In this document: piece after piece, positions 4,609-18,032 of the stretch
How positions within the stretch are numbered: position 1 is the stretch's first letter
How the letters are laid out: each line of letters begins with the position of its first letter
Source: Treponema sp.
GTDB lineage: Bacteria; Spirochaetota; Spirochaetia; Treponematales; Breznakiellaceae
Length of the DNA: 38,313 bases
Direction: 5' to 3'
NCBI GenBank assembly: GCA_009784935.1
Contig: WQXI01000021.1
Span: forward strand, 1 to 38,313
Position numbers and translations under genes: made by a program
The notes under the pieces: model-generated
What the model was told of the DNA's origin: nothing
What the model saw: the letters and a program-made list of their open reading frames with translations, nothing else
The model's database searches: none

Positions 4609-5394
4609 TTAATTAACAGATGAATATCTTTCTAAAAAACGTTTTAATCTATCGCTGGAAGGATTATCCAAAAGTTCTGGTTTTCCATATTCAACAATTA
4701 CGCCTTCGTCTATAAACAATATTGTGTCTGCGACTTGACGAGCAAACTGCATTTCGTGGGTTACGATAATCATTGTTGTGTTTTGATTTGCAAGGTTGCG
4801 GATTACTTTTAATACTTCGCCGGTTAGTTCAGGATCAAGAGCCGAAGTCGGCTCATCAAAACAAAGAATATCAGGTTTCAGCGCCAATGCTCTTGCGATA
4901 GCAACGCGCTGCTGTTGTCCGCCGGATAATTCGTGCGGATAAAAATCTTTTTTTGCAGTAAGGCCGATTCGTTCCAGCAGCTGCATGCCGTCATTATGGA
5001 TTTCTTTGATTATTTTAATCTTGTTTTTTTTATATTCCGGTAATTTACTTGCGGCAAGTTCGCGGGCAAGTACGACATTCTTAAACGCCGTGTATTGAGG
5101 GAATAAATTAAACGATTGGAACACAAGCCCAAAATGAAGGCGTTTTTGCCGAATAACAGATTTATCCGCTTTAATATGAACGTCGGAATCAAACAGTGTT
5201 TCGCCGCGGACAATAATACGGCCGTTATTTGGTTTTTCTAAAAAGTTTAAACAGCGTAAGAGAGTAGTCTTTCCGCTTCCGCTTGATCCTATTACAGCCA
5301 AGACTTCGCCTTCGTTAAGCGAAAAACTTATATCATTAAGAACTTCGGCAGTACCAAAGCGTTTTGCAATATTATATACTTCCAAAATCTTCAT
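4609..5394 (-). CDS. Polar amino-acid ABC transporter, ATP-binding protein
   Basis: ATPase of a GlnQ/HisP-type importer on the cytoplasmic face. All motifs are in place: Walker A GSSGSGKTT (residues 36-44), Q-loop Q93, signature LSGGQ (156-160), Walker B ILCFDEP (176-182) with catalytic E181, and H-loop H213. Length 261 aa is slightly longer than GlnQ because of an insert near residues 118-140. It lies 4 nt downstream of the permease gene and is the last gene of a three-gene operon (binding protein, permease, ATPase). The 3' end faces the HD-GYP pseudogene with 6 nt between them and no visible terminator. Confidence 0.93.
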   Translation of the reverse strand: MKILEVYNIAKRFGTAEVLNDISFSLNEGEVLAVIGSSGSGKTTLLRCLNFLEKPNNGRIIVRGETLFDSDVHIKADKSVIRQKRLHFGLVFQSFNLFPQYTAFKNVVLARELAASKLPEYKKNKIKIIKEIHNDGMQLLERIGLTAKKDFYPHELSGGQQQRVAIARALALKPDILCFDEPTSALDPELTGEVLKVIRNLANQNTTMIIVTHEMQFARQVADTILFIDEGVIVEYGKPELLDNPSSDRLKRFLERYSSVN

Positions 5395-5398
5395 TATA

Positions 5399-6043
5399 TT
5401 ACGCCCTAAAATAACTAAGCCGTTTTTCTATATATCCAAAAAGGATTGTCAAAAATCCGACAAATACAAGATAGAATACGCCCGTGTAAAACAGCGGCCA
5501 AATCAAACCGGTACTCATGATATTTTCCGCCACCATAAGTATTTCCATAACTACAATTACCCTTGCTAAAGCAGTATCCTTAACCAGCGTAATAATTTCA
5601 TTGCCCATAGGAGCTGTGATTCGTTTTATTACCTGCAAGAGGACAATGCGGAAAAAAACCTGCGGTTTTGTCAAGCCGAGCACTTGCCCTGCTTCATACT
5701 GACTGCGCGAAATACTTTCGATTCCGCCGCGGTATATTTCGCTAAAGTAGCATGCATAGTTAATCGAAAAAGCAATAACTGCCGCATTAAACCGCGAAGC
5801 AATCGGCGCGCCGAATATAAAACCCGGTACAAAAAATATTATAATAACTTGAAGCATCAGAGGAACACCCCTGATGATCCAGACAAAAACTTTTGTTGTA
5901 TAACGCAAGGGCGCGAATTTCGACATTGACCCGAATGAAATTAAAAGGCCAAGCGGAAGCGAAAACAATAATGTTAGCGCAAACAGCAATAGGGTGGTCT
6001 GAAACCCGCCAAGCAGTCTGCTTGTGACTTCTAAAAAAGTCAT
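5399..6043 (-). CDS. Polar amino-acid ABC transporter, permease
   Basis: Inner-membrane subunit of the HisM/GlnP family. It has about five hydrophobic segments, starting with LLLFALTLLFSLPLGLLI, and the conserved EAA loop (about residues 101-130: EIYRGGIESISRSQYEAGQVLGL) that docks on the ATPase. Length 214 aa is normal. The gene lies 24 nt after the binding-protein gene and 4 nt before the ATPase gene. A single permease gene implies a homodimeric channel. The substrate is a polar amino acid or a relative; which one is not decided by sequence. Confidence 0.92.
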   Translation of the reverse strand: MTFLEVTSRLLGGFQTTLLLFALTLLFSLPLGLLISFGSMSKFAPLRYTTKVFVWIIRGVPLMLQVIIIFFVPGFIFGAPIASRFNAAVIAFSINYACYFSEIYRGGIESISRSQYEAGQVLGLTKPQVFFRIVLLQVIKRITAPMGNEIITLVKDTALARVIVVMEILMVAENIMSTGLIWPLFYTGVFYLVFVGFLTILFGYIEKRLSYFRA

Positions 6044-6067
6044 AATCTACACTCGCGCGCTTTCTGT

Positions 6068-6862
6068 TTATCGTATTGGATCTGTACCAATTACGAGTGA
6101 TTCTCTAAGGCCGTATTTTGCGGCGATTTCATAAAGTTTCCCTTCGTTATAGAGTTCCATTATTGCATTGTTGACTCTTTCTACAAGATCGCTTCCTTTT
6201 CTAAAGCCGATGGCATACACTTCCATTCTGGAACCCAGCGGAATATCTGCAACCATCAAACCAGAAAAATCACCGGTACCTGCAAGTCTGTGAGCTAAAA
6301 TACTGTCTACAACTGCAAAATCAACAGCGCCCGATAAAACTTCCATAAATGTATCGATTTGTTTTGTTTTATCGATCATTGTGCCTCTGGCTCCAATTGC
6401 TTCAACCGCTATGGTTTCTCCTGCAGAGCCTTTTTCGGCAGCAGCTATCTTACCGATTAAATCTCTTTGTGATGAAAAATCACCGGCTCTCGACGTTCTG
6501 ATAACCACACATTGCTGGTTTAAAAGGTAGCTGTAACTAAAATCGACATCTTCATGTCTTGGGCGGCCTGTTGTTCCGTCAACCGTATTGGCAGTCATTC
6601 CGTTCCAAATACAATTAATTGCACCGGACTGAAGCTCGACAAATTTTTGGCTCCATGTAATTTCCTGAAACTCAACTTTCATGCCGAGTTTTTTACCTAC
6701 CAAAAGCGCGAATTCTGTGTCAAAACCTGTCCAATTTCCGTTTGTATCCAGAAAATTCATAGGTTCAAACTGGGTGACTCCGCATATAAGCGTTTCTGTT
6801 TTATTAGCGCATGATACGCTCAATATTAAAACAGCCAATACAAGAACAGCAATTTTTTTCAT
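6068..6862 (-). CDS. Amino-acid ABC transporter substrate-binding lipoprotein
   Basis: Family 3 solute-binding protein, anchored in the membrane. The lipobox LSVSC puts the lipid on C18. The mature protein begins with the family pattern LICGVTQFEPMNFLD...GFDTEFALLVGKKLGM and continues with the two-lobed layout (QEITWSQKFVELQSGAINCIWNGMT near residue 75-100). The start is supported by GGAGAG upstream on the - strand. It is the first gene of the importer operon, with a promoter overlapping the start of hisA on the other strand. Substrate class (polar amino acid) follows from the family; the exact ligand is open. Confidence 0.9.
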   Translation of the reverse strand: MKKIAVLVLAVLILSVSCANKTETLICGVTQFEPMNFLDTNGNWTGFDTEFALLVGKKLGMKVEFQEITWSQKFVELQSGAINCIWNGMTANTVDGTTGRPRHEDVDFSYSYLLNQQCVVIRTSRAGDFSSQRDLIGKIAAAEKGSAGETIAVEAIGARGTMIDKTKQIDTFMEVLSGAVDFAVVDSILAHRLAGTGDFSGLMVADIPLGSRMEVYAIGFRKGSDLVERVNNAIMELYNEGKLYEIAAKYGLRESLVIGTDPIR

Positions 6863-6898
6863 TTTGTTTTTCTCTCCTTTTCCTTATTGCTGGAATTC

Positions 6899-6927
6899 AT
6901 TATAATGAACCATGGTCATAGCTTCAA
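6899..6927 (-). promoter_or_regulatory. Promoter of the amino-acid importer operon
   Basis: On the - strand, TTGAAG (6927-6922), a 17-nt spacer and a perfect TATAAT (6904-6899), about 37 nt upstream of the binding-protein ATG. The -35 lies inside the hisA coding sequence. The -10 sits within the palindrome CATTATAATG, so TATAAT can also be read on the + strand at 6901-6906. Confidence 0.6.
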
Positions 6928-8225
6928 TAGACATACAGAACGGAAAAGTCGTTCAGCTAAAACAAGGCGAAGAACTTGTGCTTCAGCGCGATAATGCGCA
7001 GGAGCTGGCGCGCGAATTTGATCGTTACGGCGAAGTAGCTGTAATAGATCTTGACGCCGCTATGGGCAAGGGCACAAACCTTGACATTATAAAGCCTCTT
7101 TTACGAATCGCAGAGTGCAGGGTAGGCGGCGGGATACGTACGCCGGCTCAGGCAAAAGAACTTGTCAGTTTGGGAGCGCGGAAAATAATTGTCGGTTCAA
7201 GCGCTTTTAGACAGGATGGAAAGTTTGCCGTAAACATTCCTTTCCTTAAAGAGATGTCCAAAACAATTGGGCGCGAAAGATTGATTGCAGCGGTCGACGC
7301 GCGAAACGGTGAAATTGTCGTCGACGGATGGAAAACCCCCACAGGACTTGATTATATTAAAGCTGCAAAAGAAGTTGAACCTTTTGCCGGAGAACTTCTT
7401 TTTACATGTGTTGAACGCGAAGGCACTATGACAGGCGCAGATCTTGCTCCGGCGCAAAAATTAAGAGAAGCTGTTTCCTGCCAAATAACCGCAGCGGGCG
7501 GCGTTTCAACATTGAATGATATAGAAGAGATTTCTGCGCTCGGCTGTGATGTTCAGCTGGGTATGGCTCTTTATCAGGGAAAAATAAAATTGGCTGACGC
7601 TTTTATAGCTTCGCTTAACTGGAAGAAAGGACAGCCGCTGGAACTTAATCAGGTTCCCGGTACTCCTGTTTTTACTGCAGGAAGACTGCTTCTTCCTGTA
7701 ATTGTACAAACACCTGACGGTCAAATTATGATGACAGGTTTTGCTGATAAAGAAGCGTTAGCCGAAACTTTTAACAGAGGTAATGTTTGTTTTCATAGCC
7801 GTACGAGAGACAAACTATGGATGAAAGGCGAAAACTCCGGCAATACCTTAAAGCTGATAAAGCTGAGAGCTGACTGTGACAGAGATGCGATTCTCGCTGT
7901 TGCAGAACCCCAAGGTCCCGTCTGTCATACAGGCGCCTGGTCTTGTTTTGGAACTAATAGAGATTATACATGGAAACTGCTTCAGGATATTATTACCGAA
8001 CGTTTTAAAAATCCAACGCCCGGTTCTTACACAGCGACTCTGGATGAAAAACGTGTGCGCGATAAAATTTTAGAAGAAGCGCAGGAACTATGTGACGCAA
8101 AAAATAAAGACGAAGTTATATGGGAAGCTGCAGATCTTTTATATTTTACTTCTGCATTGATGAGCCGCGCGGGCGTTACAGTGCAGGAAATATTAGACGA
8201 ACTTGACAGAAGGCACAAGAAATGA
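6912..8225 (+). CDS. hisA: Trifunctional HisA-HisI-HisE histidine biosynthesis protein
   Basis: One 437-residue protein with three domains. Residues 1-235 are HisA (ProFAR isomerase, a TIM barrel) with catalytic acids D7 and D129 and phosphate-binding loops VGGGIRT (71-77) and AAGGVST (194-200). Residues about 252-350 are HisI (PRA-CH): the DCDRD metal motif at 321-325 and the cysteines C322, C338 (VCHTG) and C345 (SCFG). Residues about 352-437 are HisE (PRA-PH), with EEAQEL and WEAADLLY. HisE, HisI and HisA catalyse steps 2, 3 and 4 of histidine synthesis, so the fusion covers three consecutive reactions. HisIE fusions are common; a HisA at the front is unusual. The ATG has no Shine-Dalgarno. 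The stop overlaps the hisC start (ATGA). Confidence 0.9.
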   Translation: MVIASIDIQNGKVVQLKQGEELVLQRDNAQELAREFDRYGEVAVIDLDAAMGKGTNLDIIKPLLRIAECRVGGGIRTPAQAKELVSLGARKIIVGSSAFRQDGKFAVNIPFLKEMSKTIGRERLIAAVDARNGEIVVDGWKTPTGLDYIKAAKEVEPFAGELLFTCVEREGTMTGADLAPAQKLREAVSCQITAAGGVSTLNDIEEISALGCDVQLGMALYQGKIKLADAFIASLNWKKGQPLELNQVPGTPVFTAGRLLLPVIVQTPDGQIMMTGFADKEALAETFNRGNVCFHSRTRDKLWMKGENSGNTLKLIKLRADCDRDAILAVAEPQGPVCHTGAWSCFGTNRDYTWKLLQDIITERFKNPTPGSYTATLDEKRVRDKILEEAQELCDAKNKDEVIWEAADLLYFTSALMSRAGVTVQEILDELDRRHKK

Positions 8226-9367
8226 GCGAGTATTGGAATGAACGGACAAAAAATATTTCTCCGTATGTGCCGGGCGAACAGCCAAGGGACAGGCAGTTTG
8301 TTAAACTTAACACAAACGAAAATCCCTATCCGCCTTCTCCCAAAGTTATCGAAGCAATAAAGAATGCAGCAAACAAAAACTTGCGTTTATACCCCGATCC
8401 CGAATGTACGCAGTTTCGCGAAGCTGTCGCCGCCCGTTACGGCGTTAAACCTCAGCAAGTTTTTGCAGGCAACGGCTCTGACGAAATTCTAGGTTTTGCA
8501 TTCGGAGCTTTTTTTGAATCAAAAACCGTTTGTTGTTCCAGCTGCTGCGCAACAAGGTGCGCTGATTGCGATGGTTCTAAAAAACCTGCTCCAATTCTTT
8601 TTCCTGATATTACCTATAGTTTTTATCCTGTGTATGCTGATCTTTGGAATATACCGTTTAAAACTATTCCGTTATGCGAAGATTTTACTATTAATACAGA
8701 TGAATATAAAATAAACTGCGGCGGTGTTATTCTTCCAAATCCAAACGCTCCTACTTCGATTGCCCTTGAATCGGATAAATTACTTGAACTCGCAAAGTAT
8801 CTTGAACCTTTAAATAAAGTTTTAATAATAGACGAAGCTTACATTGCTTTTAGTTCTGCAAAAAACGCGCAGTCTGTTATTTCTTTTATAGACAAACATC
8901 CCAATCTGCTTGTTGTGCATACTCTCTCCAAGTCTTATTCTCTTGCAGGACTTCGCGCCGGTTTTGCGATTAGCAATGAGAAACTAATAGAAGCTCTTTG
9001 CCGAATCCGCGATTCATTTAATTCATATACTCTTGACCGGCTTGCATTGGCAGGAGCGGCGGCGGCAATTGCTGATAAACAGTATTACGATGAGATAAAT
9101 ACAAAAGTAATAGCGGCAAGAGAAAGAACAGTAAAAGAATTAAAAAATCTTGGTATTGATGTTCTGCCGTCATCGGCTAATTTTGTTTTTATAAAAGCTC
9201 CAAATCTTAAAGGAGAAGATTTCTTTTTAAAACTGCGCGAAAAAGGAATTCTCGTTCGGCATTTTAAGAACGCAAAAATAGCTGACTACTTGCGTATCTG
9301 TATCGGAACAGATGAGGAGATGGATATAGTTCTGGCAGCGTGCAGGGAGATAATAGGAAGAGGTTAA
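8222..9367 (+). CDS. hisC: Histidinol-phosphate aminotransferase
   Basis: PLP enzyme of step 7 of histidine synthesis, converting imidazole acetol phosphate and glutamate to histidinol phosphate and 2-oxoglutarate. Fold type I motifs are present: LNTNENPYPPSP (30-40), GNGSDEIL (83-90), PNPNAPTS (172-179), DEAY (204-207), the PLP lysine K237 in LSKSYSLAGLR, and the substrate Arg in LRICIGT near the C-terminus. Length 381 aa is longer than many HisC because of an insert at about residues 100-122 that holds six cysteines (C104, 105, 108, 109, 113, 116), where relatives have a short GDEVLVPDP-like loop. It overlaps the hisA fusion gene by 4 nt. Confidence 0.93.
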   Translation: MSEYWNERTKNISPYVPGEQPRDRQFVKLNTNENPYPPSPKVIEAIKNAANKNLRLYPDPECTQFREAVAARYGVKPQQVFAGNGSDEILGFAFGAFFESKTVCCSSCCATRCADCDGSKKPAPILFPDITYSFYPVYADLWNIPFKTIPLCEDFTINTDEYKINCGGVILPNPNAPTSIALESDKLLELAKYLEPLNKVLIIDEAYIAFSSAKNAQSVISFIDKHPNLLVVHTLSKSYSLAGLRAGFAISNEKLIEALCRIRDSFNSYTLDRLALAGAAAAIADKQYYDEINTKVIAARERTVKELKNLGIDVLPSSANFVFIKAPNLKGEDFFLKLREKGILVRHFKNAKIADYLRICIGTDEEMDIVLAACREIIGRG

Positions 9368-9480
9368 CCACGGTAACCTTCACCGAGCCGCAAAGCGGCG
9401 AAGGTTCCCCTCTGAAGTACACGGAGTAACACGGAGGAATGTAAAGTTTTGTTTTAAAAACTCTGTGTCCTCTGTGGTTA
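9366..9480. repeat. CCACRGAG-type hairpin repeat, copy 1, with nested GC hairpin
   Basis: The outer arms are TTAACCACGG at the left and CTCTGTGTCCTCTGTGGTTAA at the right, with TACACGGAGTAACACGGAGG in the interior. Nested inside (9375-9406) is a strong hairpin, AACCTTC...GCCGC-AAA-GCGGC-GAAGGTT. It fills the hisC-hisD gap, and the transcript must pass through it to reach hisD. Confidence 0.75.
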
Positions 9481-9512
9481 AATATTCTTGATTTTAGTAT
9501 TAGGAGAATTTG

Positions 9513-10850
9513 ATGAAGATTATAAATGGCAGCGAATTTGACGCATACTGGAAGAATGAATCCAAGACAGCTATCGATGACCCAAAGACAGATAAAACTG
9601 TTAAAAAAATTATCGATGATGTCCGCAAAAAAGGAGACAAGGCTGTCCGCCGTTTCGCGTCAAAGTTTGATAAGTCTTCTCCGGTAAAACTGGAAGTTTC
9701 TTTTTCTGAAGCAAAGCAGGCTCTTGAACAATTGCGTGCAAATGAGCCGTCTCTTGCAGAAGCTTTGGAATTATCAGCAAAAAATATAAAAACATTTTCT
9801 CAAAAACAAAAAGAACAATTTATAAATTTTGAATATGAAATTGATTCTGGTCTTGTTACGGGACAGCGGGTTATTCCTGTTCAGCGCGCAGCTGTTTATA
9901 TTCCCGGCGGGCGGTTTCCGCTTTTTTCTTCGGTTCTTATGTGTTTGATTCCAGCTTTTTGCGCAGGCGCGAAAGAAGTAATACTTTCATCTCCGCCGAT
10001 GGAAGACGGCTTGCCCGATAAAAGAACTCTTGCGGCAGCCGCCGTTGCCACTGCCGTTTGCGGTGCAGCCGAAAAACAAATACGTATTTTTGCAATCGGC
10101 GGCGCGCAGGCAATCGCCGCGCTTGCGTTGGGTACGGAATCAGTTCCTAAAGTTGATGTTATAACAGGACCGGGTAACCGCTTTGTTGCCGCCGCAAAGA
10201 GAATACTTTTTGGCGCTGTAGGGATTGATTTTATCGCAGGACCTTCTGACGTACTTGTTATTACAGACGGAAAAGCTTTAAAAGATCCGGATCAAGCCGC
10301 AGATTTTGCGGCGGCAGATTTGATTGCGCAGGCAGAACATGACCCGGATGCGCGCTCAAGAGCGTTAGTTCCAAACAGGGAACTGGCAGAAAAAATAGCT
10401 GCGGCAATAGAACACCGATTAACTTCGCTGCCGACAGCAAAAACAGCGCGCGCTTCATTAAATACAGGCGGTCTTATAATAGTATATAAAGATAAAGAAG
10501 AAGCAATTTGCATTGCCGATAAAATCGCGCCGGAACATCTAGAATTGCAGACTTCTGATGATGACAGCTGGATTCCTTCTTTAAAAAATTACGGTTCTCT
10601 TTTTATCGGCGCTTTATCTGCAGAAGTTCTCGGTGATTATTCGGCGGGTGTTAATCATACGCTGCCGACAGAAACATCCGCGCGCTTTACAGGCGGTTTG
10701 TCTGTCCGCCAGTTTTTAAAAACTGTTACAACTCTGCGCTGTTCAAACGGCGATGGATATGAAAAAGCGCGTAATGCCGCAGAAATAATCGGCAGGGCAG
10801 AAGGGCTGGAAGGCCACGCTCTCAGCGCGGAGGGGAGAAAAACATGCTAA
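9513..10850 (+). CDS. hisD: Histidinol dehydrogenase
   Basis: Zinc enzyme for the last two steps of histidine synthesis (histidinol to histidine, two NAD reductions). The family signature is clear: DVITGPGNRFVAAAKR, then GIDFIAGPSDVLV (about 215-250), metal ligands Q273 and H276 in AQAEHD, and the catalytic Glu-His pair in APEHLEL. The start was set at the ATG 9513, six nt after AGGAG (9502-9506), rather than at the TTG one codon earlier. It is third in the histidine cluster but separated from hisC by a hairpin repeat. The last 7 nt overlap the following oxidoreductase gene. Confidence 0.94.
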   Translation: MKIINGSEFDAYWKNESKTAIDDPKTDKTVKKIIDDVRKKGDKAVRRFASKFDKSSPVKLEVSFSEAKQALEQLRANEPSLAEALELSAKNIKTFSQKQKEQFINFEYEIDSGLVTGQRVIPVQRAAVYIPGGRFPLFSSVLMCLIPAFCAGAKEVILSSPPMEDGLPDKRTLAAAAVATAVCGAAEKQIRIFAIGGAQAIAALALGTESVPKVDVITGPGNRFVAAAKRILFGAVGIDFIAGPSDVLVITDGKALKDPDQAADFAAADLIAQAEHDPDARSRALVPNRELAEKIAAAIEHRLTSLPTAKTARASLNTGGLIIVYKDKEEAICIADKIAPEHLELQTSDDDSWIPSLKNYGSLFIGALSAEVLGDYSAGVNHTLPTETSARFTGGLSVRQFLKTVTTLRCSNGDGYEKARNAAEIIGRAEGLEGHALSAEGRKTC

Positions 10851-11914
10851 GAGTAGGCGTAGTCGGAACAGGAGATATCAGCAGGATTTATCTTGATAAC
10901 ATAACAAAAGTATTCAGTGATAAATTAATTCTTAAAGGAGTCACTAACAAAACTTTTTCTAAAGCAGAAAAGACAGCGGCAGAATATAATGTAAAAGCGT
11001 ATAAAACAACAGATGAGTTATTGCAGAGCAGTGATATCGATATTATTTTAAATTTAACGCCGCCAAAGTCCCATTACGAAGTCGCTCTTGCAGCTCTTAG
11101 AGCAGGTAAACATGTTTATAATGAAAAACCTGTATGTACAAAGAGAGAAGAAGCGCAGGAATTAATAAAAACAGCAAATGAAAAAGGAATAAGAATCGGT
11201 TCCGCTCCCGATACATTTCTCGGAGCAGGGCTTCAGACCTGCCGTAAATTAATCGATGACGGATGGATAGGAAAACCCGCCGCTGCAACTGCGTTTATGA
11301 TGAGTCATGGAATTGAACATTGGCACCCGTCTCCTCACTTTTTTTACAAAGAAGGCGCAGGTCCAATGCTTGATATCGGTCCGTATTATTTAACTGCGCT
11401 GATAAATTTACTTGGACCAATTACCAGAGTATGCGGCAGCGCAAAGATGACTTATCCTGTACGGACAATAACAAATCAGTTTCAGTATGGTCAAACAATC
11501 GATGTAGAAATACCGACGCATATTACAGGAGTTTTGGATTTTGCCTGCGGAACTTCTGCGGTAATTATCACAAGTTTTGATATTCATTCTCATTCATTGC
11601 CATTTATAGAAATTTACGGCAGCGAAGGAACAATGAAACTTCCTGATCCAAATACTTTTGGCGGCGAAATATTAATAAAACGATTTAACGAAGAAAAATG
11701 GTCAAGCATTCCTTTATTAAAAAACTACAGCGAAAACTCACGCGGACTTGGTCTTGCAGAAATGGCAGAAGCAATAGAACAAGGACGTCCGCACCGCGCG
11801 TCTTTTGAACTCGCATACCACGTATTAGACGTTATGCATGGAATCCATGACGCATCCGCAAGCGGTAAGTATTACAAACTAAAAAGTAAATGCAAACGCC
11901 CCGAGGCGATGTAA
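10844..11914 (+). CDS. Gfo/Idh/MocA family oxidoreductase
   Basis: NAD(P)-dependent dehydrogenase of sugars or related polyols; substrate unknown. It has an N-terminal Rossmann fold (RVGVVGTGDISRIYLDN), the family motif EKPVCT near residue 94, and the C-terminal alpha/beta domain with GPMLDIGPYYLTALINLLG (about 176-195) carrying the D...Y catalytic region. Length 356 aa is typical. It starts inside the last codons of hisD, so it is translated with the histidine genes; a role in histidine synthesis is not known for this family, and the link may only be transcriptional. A terminator-like hairpin follows. Confidence 0.88.
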   Translation: MLRVGVVGTGDISRIYLDNITKVFSDKLILKGVTNKTFSKAEKTAAEYNVKAYKTTDELLQSSDIDIILNLTPPKSHYEVALAALRAGKHVYNEKPVCTKREEAQELIKTANEKGIRIGSAPDTFLGAGLQTCRKLIDDGWIGKPAAATAFMMSHGIEHWHPSPHFFYKEGAGPMLDIGPYYLTALINLLGPITRVCGSAKMTYPVRTITNQFQYGQTIDVEIPTHITGVLDFACGTSAVIITSFDIHSHSLPFIEIYGSEGTMKLPDPNTFGGEILIKRFNEEKWSSIPLLKNYSENSRGLGLAEMAEAIEQGRPHRASFELAYHVLDVMHGIHDASASGKYYKLKSKCKRPEAM

Positions 11915-17064: not shown

Positions 17065-17136
17065 AACCACAGAGTTTCACAGAGTTCTTGTCCGAAAGTT
17101 CTTACCACTCTGTGAAACTCTGTGCCCTCTGTGGTT
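17065..17136. repeat. CCACRGAG-type hairpin repeat, copy 4
   Basis: AACCACAGAGTTTCACAGAG at the left pairs with CTCTGTGAAACTCTGTG...CTCTGTGGTT at the right: a long hairpin of 72 bp. Degenerate pieces of the same family lie on both sides (about 17022-17042 and 17311-17360). Located just after the acyl-CoA synthetase gene. Confidence 0.8.
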
Positions 17137-17154
17137 TTGTGCCTGCTAGGACTT

Positions 17155-17296
17155 CCAACGAGCTCGCAAGAGCGAAGTTTCCAGGTACAACCAACGAGCT
17201 CATAAGAGCGAAGTTTCCAGGTACAACCAACGAGCTCATAAGAGCGAAGTTTCCAGGTACAACCAACGAGCTCGCAAGAGCGAAGTTTCAAGGTAG
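17155..17296. repeat. 36-bp tandem repeat, four units
   Basis: Four direct units start at 17155, 17191, 17227 and 17263 (the last shortened by 2 nt at its end). Each contains ACGAGCTC-NNAA-GAGCGAAGTTTC, where GCTC and GAGC form a small hairpin; the four loop bases are GCAA in units 1 and 4 and ATAA in units 2 and 3. Units are contiguous with no unique spacers. The stretch 17014-17486 contains no gene I can support. Confidence 0.85.
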
Positions 17297-17419
17297 CTTC
17301 GCTGCAAGATCCTCCGTGTTCTCTGTGAACGCTGTGCCTTTGTGTGAATCTCTTAGCCGTATGACCCCTGCGAGCTCTGCGAGAGGTTTTTTCACTCTTT
17401 AATATCCTCTTCAGCCCCC

Positions 17420-17448: not shown

Positions 17449-17486
17449 GTTTTTATAAAATGATAAGCAAAAAAAGGAGATTTATT

Positions 17487-18032
17487 ATGCTTAACTTTAA
17501 GAAAGGTAGTTTCTTGCTAATACTGATAGGAATTATGGTTTTTGCCGCTATGGTAATTTCCTGTCCCGGCAGTAATAACGAAGAACAGGAAGAACTTGAA
17601 TCAATGGTTGCCGATTTACAGGCAGAACTCGAAGAAGCGCTAAAGAGTAATACCGGCGCTGCAAACCAGTCCACAGCTTCTCAAGCAAGGATTCAGGAAT
17701 TGCAGAAATTATTGGATGATGCCCAAGAAGAACTTGAAAATGCATCAAACCGCGGCAGAGGCGGCAGCAGCAGCAATACACGCGGCGGAAGCAGTAATAA
17801 TAACCAGCGTTCAGGCCGTGGTTCCAGCGCTGATGCTGACGCAGAAGCAGAAGGCAGTTCTTCTGGTAATCGCGGCGGCGGCGGAGGTGGATCATCTGGC
17901 GGTGGTGGCGGCGGCGGCCAAGGCGGCGGCGGTGGTGGTGGAAACCAGCGTGGCGGCGGCGGCCAAGGCGGAGCTGCAGCAGCTGATGCAACCGAAGAAG
18001 AAGGCATTATTCACGTTCCAACAGGCGAATAG
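17487..18032 (+). CDS. Coiled-coil, Gly-rich lipoprotein
   Basis: Function unknown. Start 17487 is chosen because AGGAGA lies just upstream; the in-frame ATG at 17460 has none. The signal ends in lipobox VISC (lipid on C26). Residues about 32-85 form a Glu/Leu/Ala-rich coiled coil (for example QEELESMVADLQAELEEAL and RIQELQKLLDDAQEELEN). The remaining about 90 residues are low complexity, dominated by Gly with Ser, Asn, Gln and Arg in runs, then an Ala/Asp part and a conserved-looking end (GIIHVPTGE). It could be a surface or periplasmic spacer protein. An intrinsic terminator follows. Poly-Gly codons are all GGN and raise the local G+C. Confidence 0.75.
   Translation: MLNFKKGSFLLILIGIMVFAAMVISCPGSNNEEQEELESMVADLQAELEEALKSNTGAANQSTASQARIQELQKLLDDAQEELENASNRGRGGSSSNTRGGSSNNNQRSGRGSSADADAEAEGSSSGNRGGGGGGSSGGGGGGGQGGGGGGGNQRGGGGQGGAAAADATEEEGIIHVPTGE

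Follow-up and report, generated by a model that had tools for sequence, protein, structure and literature searches.

A predicted HisA-HisI-HisE fusion protein of Treponema, its distribution among bacterial phyla and the exchanged residues of its HisA domain

The window analysed here is a whole stretch of 38,313 nucleotides from Treponema sp. (assembly GCA_009784935.1, contig WQXI01000021.1, positions 1 to 38,313 of the forward strand). Analysis of the reading frames revealed an ORF at 6912-8225 (+ strand) that is open along its whole length and encodes a protein of 437 residues. Searches with Pfam profiles detected three domains in this protein, namely His_biosynth (residues 1-225, E 2.2e-48, 165.2 bits against a curated cut-off of 23.6), PRA-CH (residues 274-346, E 5.6e-28) and PRA-PH (residues 357-435, E 4.7e-19), the last two also above their curated cut-offs. 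A single HisA-HisI-HisE chain of 437 residues had been proposed from the sequence alone, and one open frame with three Pfam domains above their cut-offs confirmed it. The features of the locus are as follows:

6912..8225 (including the stop), + strand: hisAIE, predicted trifunctional HisA-HisI-HisE fusion of 437 amino acids (ORF and Pfam)
6912..7619, + strand: HisA domain, residues 1-236, predicted TIM barrel; nearest solved structures PriA/HisA 3zs4 and 5a5w
7620..7730, + strand: linker (low model confidence at about residues 241-260) and beginning of the HisI part
7731..7949, + strand: HisI (PRA-CH) domain, residues 274-346
7872..7886, + strand: DCDRD metal motif of HisI, residues 321-325
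7980..8216, + strand: HisE (PRA-PH) domain, residues 357-435, with E388, E389, E392, E405 and D408
8222..9367, + strand: aminotransferase class I/II (hisC by position), sharing its first 4 nt with the end of hisAIE
9510..10850, + strand: hisD, histidinol dehydrogenase, a separate gene

Directly beside the his genes, an ABC transporter that includes a family-3 binding protein is encoded divergently on the opposite strand (4609-6862), 49 bases from hisAIE. No RNA elements were detected above the Rfam thresholds within the window, and the 13 promoter-like matches at 6600-11000, about twice the shuffle mean of 6.9, were not counted as evidence. Farther downstream, the ORF at 17088-17402 carries the repeated peptide TNELIRAKFPG and lies near a glycine-rich ORF (17460-18032) in a low-complexity stretch.

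Such a join between hisA and hisIE could be produced by an assembly or sequencing error, and the source genome is a draft of 68 contigs (94.57% complete); indel errors can create fusions of neighbouring operon genes. This explanation was rejected and is left with next to no probability, because independent genomes carry the fusion: 102 distinct fused proteins, the window's own included, were collected from many assemblies, among them the single-contig genomes G194, G212 and G310, and in the trees described below the fused rows constitute one clade for HisA and are separated from the others by one branch for HisIE. A scan of genome contigs yielded 66 loci, in records mostly of Treponema/Spirochaetaceae plus one of Brocadiia, one of KSB1 and one of Melainabacteria; HisA and HisI were located in one frame at 53 of these loci, together with HisE at 52.

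Within the Treponematales, HisI was detected in 118 of 146 genomes (120 matches), 112 times in frames of at least 400 aa and 8 times in shorter ones. When 24 Treponematales loci were fetched, HisA and HisI shared one frame in 23, and the contig of the remaining locus (L197) stops short of HisA. The HisE part of these 23 was detected by BLAST in 17 and by Pfam in two more (L191 and L195), while of the other four, L199 runs into a contig end, L203 has a stop ahead of HisE, and L198 (G138) and L205 (G432) apparently lack HisE, none being recognisable there although the contig continues. The long HisI frame of G392 was rejected as a fusion, its domains lying apart. The fusion is the usual form in Treponematales where HisI is present, and the search for this architecture in spirochaetes that had been suggested along with the sequence-only reading found it to be common in this order. 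Outside the Treponematales, among the phylum matches listed, the HisI frames measured approximately 118-267 aa.

The same architecture was followed in the other three groups. In the class of the Melainabacteria record, HisI was found in 53 of 137 genomes, 29 of which have it in frames of at least 411 aa, and all 18 long frames fetched (L154-L171) contained the three domains. HisI was also detected in 70 of the 82 KSB1-phylum genomes, and the 10 long frames fetched were all fusions, which together with L049 gives 11 genomes; in four genomes of this phylum (G620, G621, G622 and G623), frames of 269-291 aa give a second, less strong HisI match besides the ordinary HisI. In the Brocadiia class, HisI was found in 12 of 23 genomes and the fusion only in G459; eight frames of 207-286 aa were too short, and the long HisI frames of G608, G610 and G612 were rejected, as no HisA occurs in the same frame. 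One metagenome-assembled genome, Co191P1bin8, carries the fusion on three different contigs (L011, L007 and L056), perhaps reflecting a strain mixture in the bin.

Profile searches of the window's own genome (G000) revealed that the fusion is the sole PRA-CH match. The other strong His_biosynth match is HisF on contig C23, above the NCBI hisF cut-off, two partial His_biosynth matches (C9 and C4; E 6e-4 and 7e-4) fall below the Pfam cut-off, and the other PRA-PH match is a MazG protein. Thus, the separate hisA, hisI or hisE gene whose presence had been named as a point to check was not found: Pfam and NCBI profile searches recognised no second HisA, HisI or HisE in this 94.57%-complete genome, the remaining matches, apart from the two partial ones, being HisF and MazG. 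HisG, HisB and HisF are grouped on another contig, so that hisF and the fusion lie on different contigs, and an aminotransferase of the HisC type and HisD are also present. The His_biosynth search was extended to 17 further genomes, that is, G392, with its domains apart, and 16 fusion genomes chosen because a long HisI frame or a fused locus had already been seen there. Each of the 16 had one further strong His_biosynth match, and 15 of these begin with a motif of the HisF type (the exception, in G063, is unclassified). One extra His_biosynth copy each in G194 and G343 was rejected as a second hisA, since both score over the AglZ/HisF2 cut-off, and the weaker matches in these genomes (E 5e-7 or worse, covering no more than 129 of 228 positions) were not taken into account. 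Of 26 fusion genomes, 25 gave a HisB match, the exception being G459 (1.2 Mb, completeness not stated). The end of a hisF frame lies no more than 120 nt from the start of the fusion in at least 58 of the 102 fusions, none was recognised there in 29, and the other 15 lie too close to a contig end; the count of 58 is a lower bound, as HisF frames were recognised by motif. In L190 (4030-5616) and L203 (180-2387), the HisF frames adjoining the hisAIE gene have an N-terminal glutamine amidotransferase match (27.9 and 23.5 bits against a cut-off of 22.8) and are probable HisH-HisF fusions.

Comparison with NCBI family models showed that the fusion scores 162.7 with TIGR00007 (HisA), below the equivalog cut-off of 228.95, and 67.7 bits with the hisF model; by these profile scores and by its position in the tree, the N-terminal domain is a HisA rather than a HisF domain. 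Three other fused proteins scored 152-173 with TIGR00007, hence all four scored fusions are below the cut-off, while the three stand-alone spirochaete HisA that were scored reached it (229-247) and two HisA of the Brocadiia class, at 185 and 225, did not. The score with NF002747 (HisIE) was 173.8 against a cut-off of 187, which was reached by one of three other fused proteins (192.2) and not by the other two. The HisIE motifs DxDxD, three Cys, EExxE and ExxD are nevertheless all present together with PRA-CH and PRA-PH, including C322, C338 and C345 of the HisI part, which we take to be zinc ligands. With TIGR01919 (PriA/HisA-TrpF) the fusion scored 65.3, below the cut-off of 306.45, and no NCBIfam model for a three-domain protein occurred among its matches. 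A structure model built from 25 aligned fusions had a mean pLDDT of 87.4 and a pTM of 0.71, confidence being weak at residues 245-247 and 340-348, and its best Foldseek matches were PriA and HisA structures, several of them with ProFAR or PRFAR bound. Because of the pTM value, the weak linker and the poor fit of the HisIE structure 6j22, which is also among the matches but superposes only at 16.7 A rmsd and whose HisI and HisE arrangement the model does not reproduce, the predicted arrangement of the domains is not reliable.

The phylogenetic analysis of 99 HisA and HisF sequences placed the 52 fused rows, among which the window's own is counted twice, in one clade (support 100/99). With HisF as the outgroup, this clade is sister (98/92) to the 33 other HisA rows, a relation that holds for the sampled HisA, which came mostly from Spirochaetota and the phyla having the fusion. 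These 33 rows represent 32 genes (L149 and L185 both represent a single G612 gene) and include two proteins fused in another way, L258 and L261. Within the fused clade, the KSB1 and Brocadiia rows group together (96/85), and four Treponematales rows of families f3 and f4 group with Melainabacteria (98/94), which suggests, as far as the tree can tell, transfer between phyla. In the cleaned HisIE tree, one branch (100/95) split 51 fused from 59 other rows; this tree was computed without L197, the long-branched L187 and L072, which is the window's own copy. A first HisIE tree, which had rejected a single fused clade (AU p 0.0084), was discarded because L197, a fusion fragment cut by its contig, had been labelled stand-alone.

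Since a single clade holds the fused HisA domains and the HisIE parts of these proteins likewise fall together, a single fusion event with later spread is the likeliest history on these trees. An independent origin of the fusions, several times within the four phyla, would find some room in their patchy spread (1 of 12 HisI-bearing genomes in the Brocadiia class and 11 of 70 in the KSB1 phylum) and in the independent, differently made HisA fusion of other spirochaetes (L258 and L261), but it is unlikely given that all fused HisA fall in one clade, that all fused HisIE lie on one side of a branch and that the fused proteins have the residues at eight positions in common.

Other arrangements of these genes were also observed. 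In L258 (861-2258, G130) and L261 (865-2214, G246), an ordinary HisA is in frame with a HisI-like remnant and HisE (466 and 450 aa, respectively). In ten further loci of other Spirochaetia and G392 (L248, L249, L250, L253-L255, L257, L260, L262 and L189), hisA is followed by a frame of 188-316 aa of which the C-terminal part is HisE and the N-terminal part resembles a degraded HisI that lacks the metal motif; when 10 of these stretches were compared as a profile, the result was E 9.4e-5 at a probability of 59%. The six remnant genomes with a HisI place listed (G006, G185, G256, G349, G370 and G392) have the real HisI elsewhere. Finally, L205 (2168-4339, G432) contains a 724-aa frame of HisA, HisI and an aminotransferase of the HisC type, in which HisE was not found and which may be real or an assembly effect.

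Conservation was examined in an alignment of 103 rows, consisting of the 102 distinct fused proteins and the window's own repeated. The residues D7, D129, D321/D323/D325, C322/C338/C345, E388/E389/E392 and E405/D408 were invariant wherever a letter was present, across four phyla, and all HisA, HisI and HisE residues named in the sequence-only reading are among those present and invariant. The HisA domains of the 102 fused proteins (the window's own included) were further compared with 110 HisF and with the 33 other HisA rows. The positions concerned, all assigned by alignment, are the following:

6930..6932, + strand: D7, catalytic Asp of HisA, kept
6954..6956, + strand: Q15; the other HisA rows have 32 R and 1 K (n = 33)
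7038..7040, + strand: A43; His in 33 of 33 other HisA rows
7119..7121, + strand: R70, clade-specific Arg directly before the GGG loop; Q, E or D in 33 of 33 other HisA
7296..7298, + strand: D129, catalytic Asp of HisA, kept
7419..7421, + strand: E170, at the site of the catalytic Asp (S. enterica D176, M. tuberculosis PriA D175)

The fused set was nearly uniform at eight exchanged positions, which are, with the residue of ordinary HisA in brackets, Ser5 (Ala), Gln15 (Arg), Ala43 (His), Arg70 (Gln/Glu/Asp), Glu170 (Asp), Ala195 (Ser), Gln215 (Ile/Val) and Met218 (Lys/Arg), while D7, D129, W140, T165 and the GGG loop were kept. Gln15 occurred in all 102 fused proteins, as did Glu170, a position that aligns with an Asp of T. 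maritima HisA and is Asp in 31 of 33 other HisA and in 110 of 110 HisF. The HisA domain had been described as complete-looking with its active residues present, which is right for D7 and D129 and has to be amended for Glu170 in place of Asp and for the other conserved positions exchanged. Glu at the catalytic Asp position is not unique to the fusion, because two other HisA of the Brocadiia class (L183 and L221) have Glu there and Ser at the 218 site, L183 also having Lys15, in an otherwise ordinary pattern. The catalytic aspartic acid is D176 in the HisA of S. enterica and D175 in the PriA of M. tuberculosis (PMC9088769), and the S. enterica exchanges D176A and D176V abolish HisA activity and yield TrpF activity (PMC7591586). 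A change at this position would not be expected to be trivially neutral, though Glu keeps the carboxylate.

These exchanges raise the alternative that the HisA domain has lost its ProFAR isomerase activity and serves HisIE in a structural or regulatory way, for which the exchange of the catalytic Asp176, the loss of Arg15 and of the conserved His, and the score below the NCBI HisA cut-off would speak. The invariance of D7, D129, the Trp and the glycine loop argues against it, as does the ratio of substitution rates. Compared with near relatives, 10 of 15 domain comparisons allowed dN/dS to be calculated and gave 0.05-0.15, which are rough values at dS of 1.4-2.7, near saturation; for the HisA part it was 0.05-0.08 in five comparisons, with dS near saturation, and because of these low values the barrel appears to be under maintaining selection. 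Moreover, no other HisA was recognised in the window's own and the 16 fusion genomes, where the pathway is otherwise present as far as it was tested. Taken together, an inactive HisA domain is very unlikely, and an active isomerase is preferred.

A second alternative concerns tryptophan biosynthesis, in that the HisA domain could act on both substrates (HisA and TrpF), convergently with PriA, at least where trpF is absent. Only 12 of 26 fusion genomes, the window's own among them, gave a match to TrpF (PF00697), and Arg15 is exchanged in all fusions, an exchange of interest given that the S. enterica R15S variant retains HisA and gains TrpF activity (PMC7591586). The window's genome, however, has trpF near trpD- and trpC-type genes, and the position of the PriA Arg143, two before the Trp, is Asp (D138) in the window's protein and Arg in 3 of 102 fused proteins, when Trp140 is aligned with PriA W145, as we infer; in PriA itself, R143A lowers kcat/KM for PRA from 1.7e5 to 6.0e3 (PMC9088769). 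With trpF present and the Arg143 equivalent absent, a PriA-like role in the window's own genome was not supported. A dual-substrate domain is quite unlikely for the family, and a double role in the 14 genomes without TrpF is weakly suggested.

In the preferred reading, which is highly probable on the sequence comparisons, the fusion is a working trifunctional enzyme of steps 2-4 with a rebuilt isomerase site, and the fusion arose once and then spread. Because the named residues are kept and the only copy found of each function resides in this chain, it is very probable that the protein carries histidine biosynthesis through steps 2-4. HisE, at the C-terminus, would remove pyrophosphate from phosphoribosyl-ATP, HisI, in the middle, would form ProFAR by opening the adenine ring, and the HisA barrel at the N-terminus would convert ProFAR to PRFAR for HisF-HisH; as HisE, HisI and HisA catalyse consecutive steps, the chain should convert PR-ATP to PRFAR. 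The fusion would have formed once, from a HisA lineage that split early from the other sampled HisA, and would then have reached the several phyla either by transfer or through deep descent. In the rebuilt isomerase site, Asp7, Asp129 and the loop-5 Trp would have stayed, Asp176 would have become Glu and the loop-1 Arg15 Gln, the conserved His would have been lost, and the new Arg before the GGG loop may assume the charge of Arg15. Thereby, Glu170 would act as the acid/base group of a working isomerase together with a relocated Arg, and the relocation from Arg15 to Arg70 may be read from the alignment.

The joined chain would also provide fixed stoichiometry and transfer of intermediates by proximity. 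Channelling to PRFAR had been anticipated, and it is plausible by analogy with the kinetics of the HisIE of Acinetobacter, which point to preferential channelling of PR-AMP without a tunnel, with the warning from the same source that fusion by itself is neither sufficient nor required for channelling (PMC10242683). A broader proposal is put forward tentatively, as a possibility we would not favour at present: the clade would be a second natural design of ProFAR isomerase, marked by a split that preceded the diversification of the other sampled HisA, Glu for Asp and an Arg moved from loop 1 to the position before GGG, seen only joined to HisI(E), perhaps dependent on locally handed ProFAR and possibly processing PRA in genomes without trpF.

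The sequence-only reading had known of no established class with HisA in front of HisIE, which did not hold, as HisA-HisIE fusions have already been noted in passing in print and are common here. That mention assigned the same three activities in the same bacterial class, and in its section 5 it comes without the distribution, the HisA clade or an analysis of active-site residues. Fusions of this kind from gammaproteobacteria have been named in print as well. A survey from 2007 (PMC1963479) lists five his fusions, HisA-HisIE not among them, and a study from 2024 (PMC11237513, cluster 787.1) describes HisA/F-HisIE fusions in four archaeal assemblies, which have the same domain combination, compared here by description only. 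No published analysis of the fused HisA clade or its residues was found in the open-licence literature, to which the search was confined.

Compared with known systems, the fusion has the HisI-HisE order and the metal and carboxylate motifs in common with the HisIE proteins 6j2l, 6j22 and that of Acinetobacter (PMC10242683), which lack a HisA domain, whereas the fused HisIE parts form their own branch. Stand-alone HisA of S. enterica and T. maritima has the TIM barrel, D7, D129, the Trp and the GGG loop in common with the fusion, but Asp176, Arg15, His 43, Ser 195 and Lys/Arg 218 are exchanged in the latter. PriA of Actinomycetota has the HisA fold, and 3zs4 is the best structural match of the fusion model, but the window's protein lacks the equivalents of Arg19 and Arg143, is not actinobacterial and comes from a genome with trpF. 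The fungal HIS4 (HisI-HisE-HisD) is likewise a multifunctional histidine enzyme with HisIE; it has HisD in the chain where the fusion has HisA, hisD being a separate gene in the window.

In the literature searched, no description was found of the fused HisA as a separate branch that occurs in four bacterial phyla and has key conserved residues exchanged. Because the HisA part fell below the NCBI HisA cut-off in all four scored fusions, the gene may be annotated as HisIE only, and step 4 would then wrongly seem to be missing from annotated genomes. HisA, PriA and TrpF are model enzymes for the evolution of catalysis and specificity, and a deep natural clade exchanged at positions 15 and 176, which laboratory evolution has also hit, would offer a test of a new acid/base group.
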